DNA from: Alphaproteobacteria bacterium
GTDB lineage: Bacteria > Pseudomonadota > Alphaproteobacteria > ATCC43930 > CGMCC-115725
NCBI GenBank assembly: GCA_030041335.1
Contig: JASHOB010000018.1
Coordinates: 1-54,746 of the forward strand
Direction: 5' to 3'
Length of the DNA: 54,746 nucleotides
The first letter of the stretch is position 1. Every line of letters starts with the position of its first letter. The translations under genes and the position numbers were made by a program. Under the pieces are notes generated by a model. That model did no database searches. It had not been told where the DNA came from and saw only the letters and a program-made list of their open reading frames with translations. Positions 4,170 through 47,010 of the stretch are shown here, in pieces.

Positions 4170-4187
4170 CGGCGATAAGGAATGGAT

Positions 4188-4340
4188 GGGGCTGCGCAGC
4201 GCGTTAGGCCGCAATGTACCCCGGGGCCGATATTTACCTCGAGGGGACTGTCCCTACCGGAGCCGTGGCTTCGGCACACGGTGCCCACCTGCGAAAGCGG
4301 GCCGCGAGGGTAATGCAATGCCGACGGCCGTCGCGGCTCC
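4188..4340 (+). ncRNA. ssrS: 6S RNA
   Basis: About 153 nt starting 18 nt after zapA, the canonical locus. 6S RNA binds the housekeeping RNA polymerase holoenzyme by mimicking an open promoter. The long rod can be drawn. A terminal stem pairs GGGGCTGCG (4188-4196) with CGCGGCTCC (4332-4340). An inner stem pairs TTACCTCG (4234-4241) with CGAGGGTAA (4305-4313, one bulge). The apical hairpin (about 4264-4280) has a TTCG tetraloop. The unpaired central region lies between these stems. The ends are set by the terminal stem and are approximate. The folate gene fau, often found after 6S RNA, is absent. Confidence 0.88.
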
Positions 4341-4476
4341 ATCCTCGTTTGCCATCTCGCGTCTGCGGCAGGCCAAGCGGCAGGGGTAAAGAGGGTCGGC
4401 ACCGCCCGGCTTCGGCCTCGCCTCAACCCTTGGGCGTTGCCGTTTCGCCCCGCGTCGGAACGGAAATCGAGGTGCC

Positions 4477-43746: not shown

Positions 43747-44079
43747 ATGAGAGACCGTGCACTGGCGCACATAGCCCTATTGTTATCCGGTTTGTGCTTC
43801 GCGGGTGTTGCCTGCGCGCAGGATGACCCTTTGTCTCCTTCTGACTACCATTGGCTTCACGAAAACCTCAATGTGCCGCCTGAAAGCCTGACGCTTCAGG
43901 ATCTGACGCCAAGCCAGAAGGCTCACGTTTACGCGTTGATCAATACGGCGAAACTCAGCGCCGACAAGAAAGTGATGGACAGCGCCGACTATCTCTATCG
44001 GGTAAACGGCGAGGATTTTGAAGAAATCCTGAGACGGTCGGAACAGCTGATCGTCGCGCCTCTGCCCGATCGGGACTAA
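43747..44079 (+). CDS. Small exported protein of unknown function
   Basis: A 110-residue protein with a signal peptide (ALAHIALLLSGLCFAGVACA, cleavage before QDDP near residue 25). The mature part is about 85 residues, charged and helical (SLTLQDLTPSQKAHVYALINTAKLSADKK). I recognise no family. The ribosome binding site is weak. The segment 43488-43746 upstream is noncoding and includes an AT-rich patch (about 43550-43575) that may hold promoters for both flanking genes. Confidence 0.6.
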   Translation: MRDRALAHIALLLSGLCFAGVACAQDDPLSPSDYHWLHENLNVPPESLTLQDLTPSQKAHVYALINTAKLSADKKVMDSADYLYRVNGEDFEEILRRSEQLIVAPLPDRD

Positions 44080-44244: not shown

Positions 44245-44361
44245 AGTGGCAACGAGCCAGGAGGCCGACCAACCCCAGCAATTTCCATGCCGGTCCCGAG
44301 GCGCGCCACGCCGTAGCCTCAGGGCGCACAATCGTCTATGCAGGAGCGAATCCACGGAACG

Positions 44362-44832
44362 ATGACGATGCGGCGCCGAAGCAAGATCGCGGAGACCAAC
44401 AATGGCCAGGGGCTTCGGCGCACAAGCGCCTGCTGCCGAAAGGCGTTTGATCCGCGGTCGGGGATCGCCCAAAACGCAGCCCTTCTGGTTTTCGTCATGT
44501 TGCTTGCCGCCTGTGCTGCGAAAGGGCCCCCAACTTCGCAAGAGCTCTACGATGCCGACCTGAAAAAATGCGATGCCTTGGCGCCGCCGTTTGATTCGAC
44601 GAGGGCAGGTGAGCCCGATTACCTGTCGCAGATGAACGAGGCATTCACCCAGCAACAGAAATGCTATTTCCAGGCGAACGTGAATCTGGAGGGGCGCGAC
44701 AAGACCCCTGCGTCCAACCTCAGAACGCTCCAGGAGATCGGTGGGAGCATGGAGCCGACCGGGCAACGCATGATGCCGGCGATCGCTCCTTCCGCAGCCG
44801 GCTCGGCGCCGGCGACGACGTCGACACCATGA
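44362..44832 (+). CDS. Putative lipoprotein of unknown function
   Basis: About 156 residues. A hydrophobic stretch IAQNAALLVFVMLLAAC ends in a good lipobox (LLAAC), implying a lipidated Cys. The mature part has two more Cys (LKKCDALA and QQKCYFQ), spaced as a likely disulfide, and an Ala/Ser/Thr/Pro-rich tail. The N-region before the hydrophobic stretch is unusually long (about 37 residues) and basic; in-frame ATGs at 44338, 44362 and 44368 are possible and 44362 is a guess. No family was recognised. Confidence 0.55.
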   Translation: MTMRRRSKIAETNNGQGLRRTSACCRKAFDPRSGIAQNAALLVFVMLLAACAAKGPPTSQELYDADLKKCDALAPPFDSTRAGEPDYLSQMNEAFTQQQKCYFQANVNLEGRDKTPASNLRTLQEIGGSMEPTGQRMMPAIAPSAAGSAPATTSTP

Positions 44833-44954
44833 CCCGGTGACCGAGGCAACGCCCGACGCTCAATCCCTACCCCGATGGTGACGGGCGAACGTGCGCAATT
44901 GCGAGTGGCGCTCGAGAACGGCCTTCGTCACCTCTTGCGCCCGCGTTGCGATCG

Positions 44955-45239
44955 CTATGTCAGGAACGAATGCACGATTTCGACCAGCTCCTCCGCCGCT
45001 TGCGCACGCGGATCGTCACGCGATGCCTTGGGGTCGACGAGGTGCTCAAGGATATGGTCCTCGATCACCTCGGCGATGAAGCCGTCAAGCGCGCCTCGAC
45101 ATGCCGTAGCCTGCTGCAGAATAGCGGCGCAGGTCGCATCTTCCTGGACCCGCCTCTCAACGGCGTCGAGCTGGCCGCGGATGCGCCGCAGGCGGAGGAG
45201 CAGTTTCTGCTTCTCTTTTTCCTGACTGGTGTGGGTCAT
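44955..45239 (-). CDS. CsoR/RcnR/FrmR-family metal-sensing repressor, RcnR-like
   Basis: A 94-residue all-helical regulator (LRRIRGQLDAVERRVQEDATC, ILQQATACRGALDGFIAEVIEDH). It has His3, Cys37, His62 and His66. Allowing a two-residue insertion in helix 1, these match the four Ni/Co ligands of E. coli RcnR (His3, Cys35, His60, His64); even the MTHT start resembles RcnR's MSHT. FrmR-type formaldehyde sensing is less likely because residue 2 is not Pro. The gene has a dyad over its own predicted promoter. No metal exporter is adjacent in the window. Confidence 0.85.
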   Translation of the reverse strand: MTHTSQEKEKQKLLLRLRRIRGQLDAVERRVQEDATCAAILQQATACRGALDGFIAEVIEDHILEHLVDPKASRDDPRAQAAEELVEIVHSFLT

Positions 45240-45573
45240 TTCGCTTGATCCTATCCTCCAGGGGAGGATAAATCACGGGACGTCGCTTGTCGAACTGGTT
45301 CTCGGCGCCGCTCCGGCCTTGCCGGCCCAGGCCCGAGTGACGGGCCTGGAGCAATCGCAATCGGGCGTGATGAGGATCTTGGCCAAGGAGCGAACCGTGT
45401 CCGCCCCGCGCAATCGTCCGTCTCCCCGACAAAGGGTCGGTCGGCTCGTTCTTGAAGCCTCGTGCCGCCGGTGACGTGCCACCTGGCAAGCCGTTCGGAC
45501 GGGTCGAACGCGCTCGCGATCCCGGGAGCATCTCCGTTTTGTAATAAATGCACGGTATTGGAAGGGAGGCTCC
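45240..45573. other. Intergenic region between divergent regulator and porin genes (334 bp)
   Basis: This region holds the regulator's promoter and operator at its left end and GGGAGG before the porin start at its right end. In the middle, CCAGGCCCG-AGTGA-CGGGCCTGG (45327-45349) is a perfect nine-pair inverted repeat of unknown role, not followed by a T run. Short frames here lack coding character. Confidence 0.5.
45252..45294 (-). promoter_or_regulatory. Promoter and operator of the RcnR-like regulator
   Basis: TATCCTCC-AGG-GGAGGATA (45252-45270) is a perfect eight-pair dyad with a G/C-rich centre and A/T ends, the general form of CsoR/RcnR-family sites. On the minus strand TTCGAC (45294-45289) and TATCCT (45270-45265), 18 bp apart, make a plausible promoter whose -10 is one half of the dyad. 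Binding there would block transcription of the regulator itself. Confidence 0.6.
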
Positions 45574-47010
45574 ATGCTTCGATCGGCGAAAACGTCTCGG
45601 ATCGCGCCGCGCGCGCTCCCCATCGGGGTCCTCCTGGTTGCGGCGACGGTGTCCGCGAGCTTTGGACAAAATGCGGCGCCGGCACCACAGCCGGCCCCTG
45701 GTTTGTTCAGTCAGGACCGCACCAATCTCTTGGGCGACATGGCCGGGCTCCGACCCGCCCTTGCCAATCTCGGCATAACGCTGACGATAACGGAGGCCGA
45801 CGAGGTCCTGGGCAATGTGACCGGCGGTGTTCGTCGCGGCGCCGAATATGACGGCTTGACCACCATGATCCTCACCATGGACACCGCCAAGGCATTCGGC
45901 TGGAACGGCGGCACGTTTAACATCAGCGCGCTCGAGATTCACGGCCGCAATCTCACAGCCGACAATCTCCAAGCTCTTCAGACCGTGAGTGACATCGAAG
46001 CCGATGACGCGGCACGATTGTGGGAGCTTTGGTATCAGCAGACTTTTCTGGGCGGAGCTGTCGACGTCAAAATCGGCCAGCAGAGCCTCGATCAGGATTT
46101 CCTGACCAGCCAGCTTGCGAGCTTGTTCCTCAACGCCGCGATGGGATGGCCGGTTTTGCCGTCCGTCAATCTCTATGCCGGAGGCCCGGCGTATCCCTTG
46201 TCTTCGCTTGGCCTGCGGCTGCGGGGGCGCCCCAGCGATGCGATCACCGTGCTCGGCGGCGTCTTCGACGACAATCCGCCGGGCGGTCCCTTCGACAACG
46301 ATTCACAAGTGCTTGGCGCCGAGGCGGCGGGCGCCCGATTCAACCTGGGGACGGGTGCGCTCTTTATTGCTGAGTTGCAATATGCCGCCAATCAGCCGGC
46401 GGCGGACGCAAACGCGCCCGCGCCGGCGGGCCTTCCGGGGACCTACAAAATCGGCTTTTGGTACGACACCGGCAGCTTTCCCGACCAGCTTCTCGATAAC
46501 ACCGGCGTCTCTTTGGCGAGTCCCTTGAGCACCGGCATTCCCCAAATGCATCGTGGCAATTTCAGTCTTTACGCGATGATCGATCAAACGGTCTGGCGGC
46601 CGGATGCCAAAGGCGCGGAATCGCTTGGCGCCTTTCTGCGGGTGATGGGTGCCCCGCCCGATATGAATCTGGTCACCTTTTCGGCCAATGCCGGGCTCAA
46701 TCTTAAAGCGCCGTTGCCGGGACGGGATGCCGACAGTTTCGGCATCGGATATGGGGTCGCCAAGATCAGCAGCCGCGCTAGCCAGCTCGACCTCGATACC
46801 GCGCTTTTCACGGATACGGCGTATCCGATCCGGACGGCCGAGCAATTCATCGAGATCACCTACCAAATCCAGGCGGCCGGCTGGTGGCAGATACAGCCCG
46901 ATTTTCAATACATCATCGACCCCGGCGGCGGCGTTCCCAATCGCAACGCGCCTGGACAACGCGTCAAGAACGAAGCGGTCCTCGGCCTGCGGTCGATGGT
47001 CACCTTCTGA
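45574..47010 (+). CDS. OprB-family carbohydrate-selective porin
   Basis: A 478-residue outer-membrane barrel. The signal peptide ends near residue 31 (VSASFG-Q). The mature part begins with LFSQDRTNLLGDMAGLRPALANLGITL, typical of OprB. Alternating beta-strand segments follow (FNISALEIHGRNL, SLGLRLRGRP, YKIGFWYDTG, GNFSLYAMIDQTVWRP) and the last residue is Phe (LRSMVTF), the outer-membrane assembly signal. GGAAGGGAGG precedes the ATG. The substrate is unknown; the divergent RcnR-like gene raises the possibility of metal-linked regulation, but the dyad is about 300 bp away. Confidence 0.87.
   Translation: MLRSAKTSRIAPRALPIGVLLVAATVSASFGQNAAPAPQPAPGLFSQDRTNLLGDMAGLRPALANLGITLTITEADEVLGNVTGGVRRGAEYDGLTTMILTMDTAKAFGWNGGTFNISALEIHGRNLTADNLQALQTVSDIEADDAARLWELWYQQTFLGGAVDVKIGQQSLDQDFLTSQLASLFLNAAMGWPVLPSVNLYAGGPAYPLSSLGLRLRGRPSDAITVLGGVFDDNPPGGPFDNDSQVLGAEAAGARFNLGTGALFIAELQYAANQPAADANAPAPAGLPGTYKIGFWYDTGSFPDQLLDNTGVSLASPLSTGIPQMHRGNFSLYAMIDQTVWRPDAKGAESLGAFLRVMGAPPDMNLVTFSANAGLNLKAPLPGRDADSFGIGYGVAKISSRASQLDLDTALFTDTAYPIRTAEQFIEITYQIQAAGWWQIQPDFQYIIDPGGGVPNRNAPGQRVKNEAVLGLRSMVTF

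Follow-up and report, generated by a model that had tools for sequence, protein, structure and literature searches.

Background

Among the described regulators of the CsoR/RcnR family (DUF156), RcnR of E. coli is the Ni/Co repressor of rcnA, and DmeR belongs to the dmeRF unit. According to the account in PMC7055735, metal binding releases RcnR, InrS and DmeR, and the Ni/Co sensors of RcnR and DmeR type are known as efflux switches. The family can also control genes other than exporters, as shown by a CsoR-family regulator of a sulfur oxidation pathway (PMC10318464). The NRMT proteins (NrmT) are represented by 7QIA (EleNRMT), an uncoupled Mg2+ transporter, and carry the signature DxxG-TxxA/T, as given in PMC8806188. 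As reported in PMC4072509, an NRMT relative of A. capsulatum acts on Mn2+, not Mg2+, and nrmT of Clostridium stands under M-box riboswitches. Besides, an OprB-family porin, FeoP, is part of a predicted Fe(II) uptake unit with Fur boxes in Acidithiobacillus (PMC2631029). A literature search, which reached few of the subscription journals, found no description of a DUF156 regulator paired with OprB and NRMT.

Here we analysed a window, i.e. one whole stretch of 54,746 nucleotides (contig JASHOB010000018.1) from an alphaproteobacterium, in which a DUF156 regulator stands back to back with an OprB-type porin. We consider it probable, if not strongly so, that this regulator is a repressor of RcnR type that acts on its own gene and on a module for divalent-cation entry, made up of a porin and a Mg2+/Mn2+ importer; in this genome, the module would be spread over two loci.

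The regulator, its dyad and the divergent porin

The features around the regulator are as follows (positions are those of the window).

44955-45239, minus strand: DUF156/RcnR-like repressor (CsoR/RcnR family), 94 aa, fingerprint H3-C37-H62-H66
45252-45270, no strand: perfect 8-3-8 dyad TATCCTCC-AGG-GGAGGATA (in full TATCCTCCAGGGGAGGATA), putative operator at the position of the site conserved in relatives
45265-45293, minus strand: promoter-like TCGACA-17-TATCCT of the regulator from a promoter scan, with its -10 at 45270-45265, within the dyad
45245-45272, plus strand: putative divergent promoter TTGATC-16-GATAAA around the dyad, positioned from the alignment with relatives
45240-45310, no strand: stretch that aligns to the divergent region in a same-genus relative (G002), 76%, from comparison
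45574-47010, plus strand: OprB-type porin, 478 aa, divergent from the regulator

The regulator matched PF02583 with 81.2 bits (cut-off 22.8) over positions 1-77 of the 78 in the profile, which places it in the CsoR/RcnR (DUF156) family. With E. coli RcnR (taken from NC_000913.3) as the reference for the ligand columns, H3, C37, H62 and H66 align with H3, C35, H60 and H64 of RcnR, so that the family cysteine and the whole H-C-H-H set of metal ligands are present; the two residues that the window regulator has in addition lie near the N-terminus. The porin matched PF04966 (OprB) over its full length (5.6e-101, 339.1 bits, profile 1-372 of 372), and its best solved relative is 'Porin B' (4gey). 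It shares 63% identity over 382 aa with a contig-cut OprB that lies behind NRMT and MgtC in G002. In comparison with the porin of locus L143, the identity is 27% over 111 aa, and the window porin belongs to a different OprB sub-clade than that of most compared loci; therefore the porin has been replaced at least once.

The dyad is the sole match to itself at up to 3 mismatches within the window (0.03 expected) and the sole perfect copy in the 5.17-Mb assembly. A scan of positions 44900-45650 called one sigma-70-like promoter, on the minus strand (0.1 expected in shuffles), and none on the plus strand. Because the site covers the regulator's own -10, the regulator is predicted to be probably autoregulated. 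The original prediction had described an RcnR ligand set displaced by a two-residue indel, a perfect dyad over the predicted -10 and an OprB-type porin as the divergent gene, and all three agree with our results; a failure of the four residues to align with the RcnR ligands, which it had named as evidence against itself, did not occur.

The window locus is like RcnR in its DUF156 domain, its H-C-H-H columns and the site on its own promoter. However, the NCBIfam RcnR equivalog gave 61.3 bits where 138 are required, and the window site does not have the RcnR-type operator form TACT-G6-N-AGTA, as that form is given in PMC7055735. The partner of the window regulator is a porin, and relatives also have NRMT or MgtC as partners. 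No exporter of the families searched was found either: tblastn with NicO and CDF queries over the window gave no match at E<=1e-4 and at least 45 bits, and a membrane-fusion query gave none within 8 kb of the regulator. The window has neither a linked rcnA-type exporter (by the NicO search), of which a probable one is found in the same-genus relative, nor a CDF exporter (dmeF) next door as expected of DmeR; the genome's own DmeR-like/CDF pair is on another contig, C77. The window regulator is of a known family and has the RcnR/DmeR fingerprint, but by score, exporter and operator it does not count as RcnR, nor by their own marks as DmeR or FrmR.

On the other side of the regulator, two small ORFs on the plus strand (43747-44079 and 44338-44832) are convergent with it and have no Pfam or NCBIfam match; the latter contains a lipoprotein-like LLAAC stretch. 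A 6S RNA (RF00013, 67.1 bits) is located at 4186-4343 on the plus strand.

Neighbours of the regulator in 86 related loci

We compared 86 loci, namely the window, 2 Acidiphilium plasmids, 6 genomes of the same family, 75 of 80 loci from a scan, and L041 and L042. The scan loci are the best 80 of 455 relatives, with LQQATACR used as one seed; L065, L066, L067, L079 and L100 were excluded before counting as duplicates of L030-L033 and L035. All counts below refer to mutually related loci picked by similarity, 33 of them from Sphingomonadaceae, many in draft assemblies, and the neighbours come from tblastn searches with selected families.

The close relatives of the regulator are in the six genomes of the family (69-95% identity) and on the two Acidiphilium plasmids (65%). 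Over the 86 regulators, C35 and H60 are present in all, H64 in 81, and a His among the first five residues in 75. Cys45 is present in 84 of 86, a figure biased by the LQQATACR scan seed.

An OprB-type porin is the commonest divergent neighbour found (64 of 86 loci), and a divergent NRAMP is found in 26, an ABC permease in 22 and MgtC in 16. OprB and/or NRAMP are divergent in 71 of 86 loci, and any of the four partners in 75. When only the 77 loci with at least 3.5 kb upstream are taken, OprB is found in 58, OprB or NRAMP in 64, and any of the four in 68. Among the 11 loci without any listed upstream partner, two have less than 450 nt available. The association extends over several groups, with a divergent porin or NRAMP in 27 of 33 Sphingomonadaceae, 7 of 9 Caulobacteraceae, 7 of 9 gammaproteobacterial records and 4 of 5 Reyranellaceae loci. 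Eight control loci (L036-L039, L043, L145, L146 and L147) have none of the four partners upstream, where L145 offers only 625 nt; four of them, L036-L039, are DmeR-like loci with a CDF gene next door. L041 and L042 were rejected as controls on account of the porin or NRAMP-porin-MgtC found there, and count among the 86 loci.

In G002, whose regulator is 95% identical to that of the window, the divergent genes are a 69-codon ORF, an NRAMP (NRMT), MgtC and OprB, and after the regulator comes a probable His-rich Ni/Co exporter (Pfam NicO weak, E 0.06; NCBIfam nickel/cobalt efflux model 4e-5, under its cut-off); both this exporter and the porin are cut by contig ends. In Acidiphilium, an NRAMP is divergent from the regulator with MgtC behind it. 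Another family genome, G027, has DmeF after the regulator (470.6 bits against a required 250), and none of OprB, NRAMP, ABC permease or MgtC was found upstream.

This DmeF next to a relative of the window regulator, together with the shared fingerprint, is the likeness to DmeR. In contrast, in a tree of only 92 columns for 95 rows, 82 regulators including that of the window group at support 99/90, and four DmeR-like references, named by context rather than by experiment, group apart at 97/90, with the window regulator outside them. L041 and L042, which have a porin, fall outside the group of 82. Mapped on the tree, the porin/NRMT label requires 10 changes and does not form one clade, and none of 500 shuffles gave a number as low.

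Several other observations were made at these loci. An ABC permease of about 580 aa with two BPD_transp stretches, together with an ATPase with AAA_assoc_C, recurs beside the regulator, and a gene like a Na/phosphate cotransporter lies near NRMT in three loci, i.e. in the window's own genome (contig C78), in G014 of the same family and in a gammaproteobacterial record.

ABC permease/ATPase, recurrent neighbour, examples: L143 3295-6383; L092 4722-7790; L034 5067-8140
Na/phosphate-cotransporter-like gene: L054 8561-10273; L034 12012-13697; L133 (Pfam for G014 alone, tblastn for the others)

The Acidiphilium unit of regulator, NRAMP and MgtC (L028, L029) is plasmid-borne near recombinase and transposase genes, and therefore may move between cells. 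The regulator of L102, a record titled Arthrobacter sp. TPD3018, groups among Sphingomonas and has the porin/NRMT unit; this record may be mislabelled or contaminated.

The predicted family operator and a second site in the same genome

In 74 of the 86 loci, an operator arm ATAC(C/T)C lies no more than 120 nt from the start of the regulator, where shuffled sequences gave 6.0 on average and 17 at most. Over the same distance, 46 of the 86 have TTGA(T/C)-N14-19-TATA pointing to the divergent gene, against an average of 0.26 and at most 3 in shuffles. Twelve loci miss the arm, and the window, in which it is altered, is one of them; it is also outside the 46. In its close relatives, the aligned sites lie between the -35 and -10 of the porin or transporter promoter, near the regulator start, which suggests that one site serves two promoters there. 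The window keeps TTGATC, but its divergent -10 departs from that of close relatives, with GATAAA in place of TATATA. Compared with G027, it is this replacement that gives the window its perfect dyad; among the close relatives such symmetry is peculiar to the window's genome, the others having an imperfect site at the same place.

The exact window dyad was dropped as a search pattern, for its matches at up to 3 mismatches in the assembly (5 places) were not above the reversed-pattern control (7), and the family promoter-operator CTTGATCCTAT-N6-GGGG-N-GTATAT was searched instead, again with up to 3 mismatches. This pattern was drawn after viewing the sites of G002, G027, G016, G004, G023 and C78, so matches there are expected and the new information is its near-absence elsewhere. 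Over 46 genomes it was found in eight places, seven of them at the regulator or its target; of the 7 genomes with a close regulator, 6 have it, as does 1 of the remaining 39. The former are the window's genome (G000), G002, G004, G016, G023 and G027, and the latter is G009 (once, 3 mismatches). No site was found with the pattern in G014, which has a close regulator, or in G046, which has a more distant regulator with the same partners.

In the window's own genome the family pattern was found in two places (reversed control 1): with 2 mismatches at 45244-45271 of the window, and perfectly at C78:106022-106049, upstream of an NRMT-like gene that shares 78% identity with that of Acidiphilium. The C78 site retains the leader of the relatives; next to it, roughly six codons look like the start of a regulator gene, of which no further part was matched there. 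In the window, NRMT, MgtC and the leader are absent, the leader not being found beyond about 45310, where the homology to G002 ends; MgtC was not found in the assembly at all. The simplest account would be a complementary loss, in which the regulator disappeared from C78, and NRMT, MgtC and the leader from the window. The NRMT-like gene on C78, of Acidiphilium type and 37% identical to the NRMT of G002, is probably a trans target of the window regulator, as predicted from its site; two more NRAMP-family genes in this genome do not have the family site. As the G000 assembly consists of 262 contigs and has 3.65% contamination, C78 could be foreign. A stretch of 11 kb of C78 has a tetranucleotide correlation of 0.97 with the window, within the range of loci from other genomes (0.90-0.98), and a G+C of 0.60 vs 0.65.

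The assembly contains three DUF156 genes: the window regulator, one on C94 that is CsoR-like as named from its sequence, and the DmeR-like gene on C77, with a CDF-family gene directly after it and its own dyad, so a Ni/Co efflux pair likely exists elsewhere in this genome.

These results change the original prediction in part. It had called the regulator an orphan, which no longer holds in view of the same-genus relative, where the regulator adjoins a probable Ni/Co exporter, NRMT, MgtC and OprB. The dyad with which it proposed a genome scan has a single perfect copy; as a search pattern it was too narrow, and the C78 site is found only with the family form. Of its two options, a distant target now has a candidate on C78, and a link with the envelope porin is supported by the survey. 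It had also stated that sites located solely beside an rcnA-like or copper exporter would speak against it, and the other site adjoins an importer-type gene.

NRMT-type transporters and the leader of the divergent transcript

Beside the regulator there are 27 NRAMP matches, the 26 divergent ones and one downstream (L096). In 24 of 27, TxxA in TM6 is combined with NDAG in TM1, and the next residue is A (G002 type) or G (Acidiphilium and C78). L069 differs with DDDPSG and TTIS, L117 is readable in TM1 only, and L094 in neither; when the NRAMP of L069 is removed, the porin-or-NRAMP count stays 71. The C78 transporter has NDAGG (TM1) and TTIA (TM6), an exact match to the NRMT signature, while the G002-type transporters, which make up most of the NRMTs divergent from the regulator, have DxxA rather than DxxG in TM1 and fit it nearly. 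For the two types tested (G002; C78), the best solved match is 7qia, with 2.9e-49 and 6e-46, and the next chains reach 1.3e-17 and 3.8e-9, so 7qia is far ahead of any MntH chain. These NRAMPs are likely NRMT-type Mg2+/Mn2+ importers, where import is the presumed direction; given the Mn2+ case of A. capsulatum, the substrate stays Mg2+ or Mn2+. They are like NRMT in the C78 signature and the best match, and differ in standing beside a DUF156 repressor rather than under the M-box riboswitches described for Clostridium.

The leader of the divergent transcript contains a short ORF, MNPRSS..EGDSRR, whose letters are conserved also at synonymous sites (CGATCTAGC, GACAGT).

Leader examples: L054 6105-6320; L030 3884-4094; L033 9472-9685, and relatives

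Third positions show a slight excess in this ORF over 28 leaders and a modest one over 8 of Novosphingobium type, and its translation is therefore unproven. Hairpins after CAGT are convincing to the eye but have different registers, and the best stem beats shuffles at p<=0.05 in 8 of 33 leaders; RNAalifold on the 33 leaders gave no consensus pairs. Rfam gave no fitting leader family at the gathering score in L030-L035, nor in one Caulobacter leader at E<=10. In Reyranella-like loci, the leader ORF is followed by a hairpin over the ribosome site of a 63-69-codon ORF, which stands out clearly in single folds, with z of -3.4 (G002) and -2.8 (C78) but only -1.4 and -1.1 in two others, and has almost no covariation support.

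Proposed mechanism and alternative explanations

Sequence supports the family, the ligands, the site, the neighbours and the second site, and from these we infer DNA binding, the identity of the metal, the import direction, the regulation and the physiology. The regulator would be a CsoR/RcnR-family sensor for transition metals, of RcnR type (His-Cys-His-His). In its metal-free form it would bind the dyad, which covers the regulator's own -10 and falls inside the opposite promoter, with the -35 and -10 of that promoter on either side, and one bound site would repress the regulator and the OprB-type porin together. The opposite transcript differs among relatives, with one or more of a porin, an NRMT-type importer, MgtC and an ABC permease, so the module would be a unit of divalent-cation entry and homeostasis. 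In the window's genome, regulator and porin are at the window, and the NRMT-like gene with its own perfect promoter-operator on C78 would be controlled in trans. Excess Co, Ni or a similar metal would release the repressor from both promoters, whereupon porin and NRMT would raise the supply of Mg2+/Mn2+ and outcompete the toxic ion; in some relatives an exporter would add to the response. The induction of Mg2+/Mn2+ entry by excess metal is the weakest step. Entry genes freed by metal excess would be unusual, because the nickel sensors of the family treated in PMC7055735 control export, and the paradox would be resolved only if the induced route carries a competing essential ion.

The same DNA logic would hold if the regulator sensed Mn, Zn, Cu or another metal rather than Ni/Co, which we regard as unlikely but worth serious thought: the fingerprint alone leaves the metal unfixed, the E64H variant of FrmR gains responsiveness to Zn(II) and cobalt (PMC5016687), the A. 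capsulatum relative behaves as a Mn transporter (PMC4072509), and the CDF gene downstream in L085 is closest to ZitB, though below the cut-off of that model, whereas PMC7055735 gives H-C-H-H for the Ni/Co sensors RcnR and DmeR. That the protein is an ordinary Ni/Co efflux regulator of RcnR or DmeR type, with its exporter lost and the porin as a chance or relic neighbour, is distinctly unlikely in our view. The H-C-H-H fingerprint, the probable NicO-type exporter downstream in G002, DmeF in G027 and a co-directional downstream CDF gene in 9 of 86 loci would fit it, but it is at odds with the recurrence of a divergent porin and/or NRAMP across several families, with the separate DmeR-like and CDF pair with its own dyad on C77 of the same genome, and with the sole other family site of the genome, which lies upstream of an NRMT-like gene.

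It is improbable that the porin conducts sugars and that the regulator links their uptake to some unrelated signal. Although PF04966 is named a carbohydrate-selective porin family, the recurrent neighbours identified in our searches with chosen families are cation transporters, MgtC and ABC permease, and the OprB-family FeoP is predicted for iron uptake in PMC2631029; FeoP is like the present case as an OprB-type porin in a metal-uptake unit, and differs in having Fur boxes where the window locus has a DUF156 regulator. A formaldehyde sensor like FrmR is hardly credible, even though FrmR is both the best NCBIfam model for the window regulator (88.2 bits) and its best solved relative. The score is below the FrmR cut-off of 133, and Pro2, needed by FrmR according to PMC5016687, is replaced by Thr while the Cys is present (Pro is at residue 2 in 2 of 86 regulators). 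Besides, His66, at the fourth ligand position, corresponds to Thr in the FrmR of E. coli and to Glu in that of Salmonella, and the neighbour is a porin.

Significance

Beyond the preferred reading of the window, we tentatively suggest a widespread and hitherto undescribed regulon, which is possible but which we would not yet call probable. In it, an RcnR-type sensor would control divalent-cation entry (OprB, NRMT, MgtC/ABC permease) with a second layer at the transcript level (the leader ORF and the Reyranella-like ribosome-site hairpin), as a metal-stress response that raises the competing essential ion. If true, sensors of Ni/Co type would also set what enters the cell, beyond efflux, and NRMT genes would be under a control other than the M-box riboswitch. 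The 'carbohydrate' porins would gain a role outside sugar uptake, and the system would offer a direct test of how bacteria keep their Mg2+ (or Mn2+) supply safe from Co and Ni.
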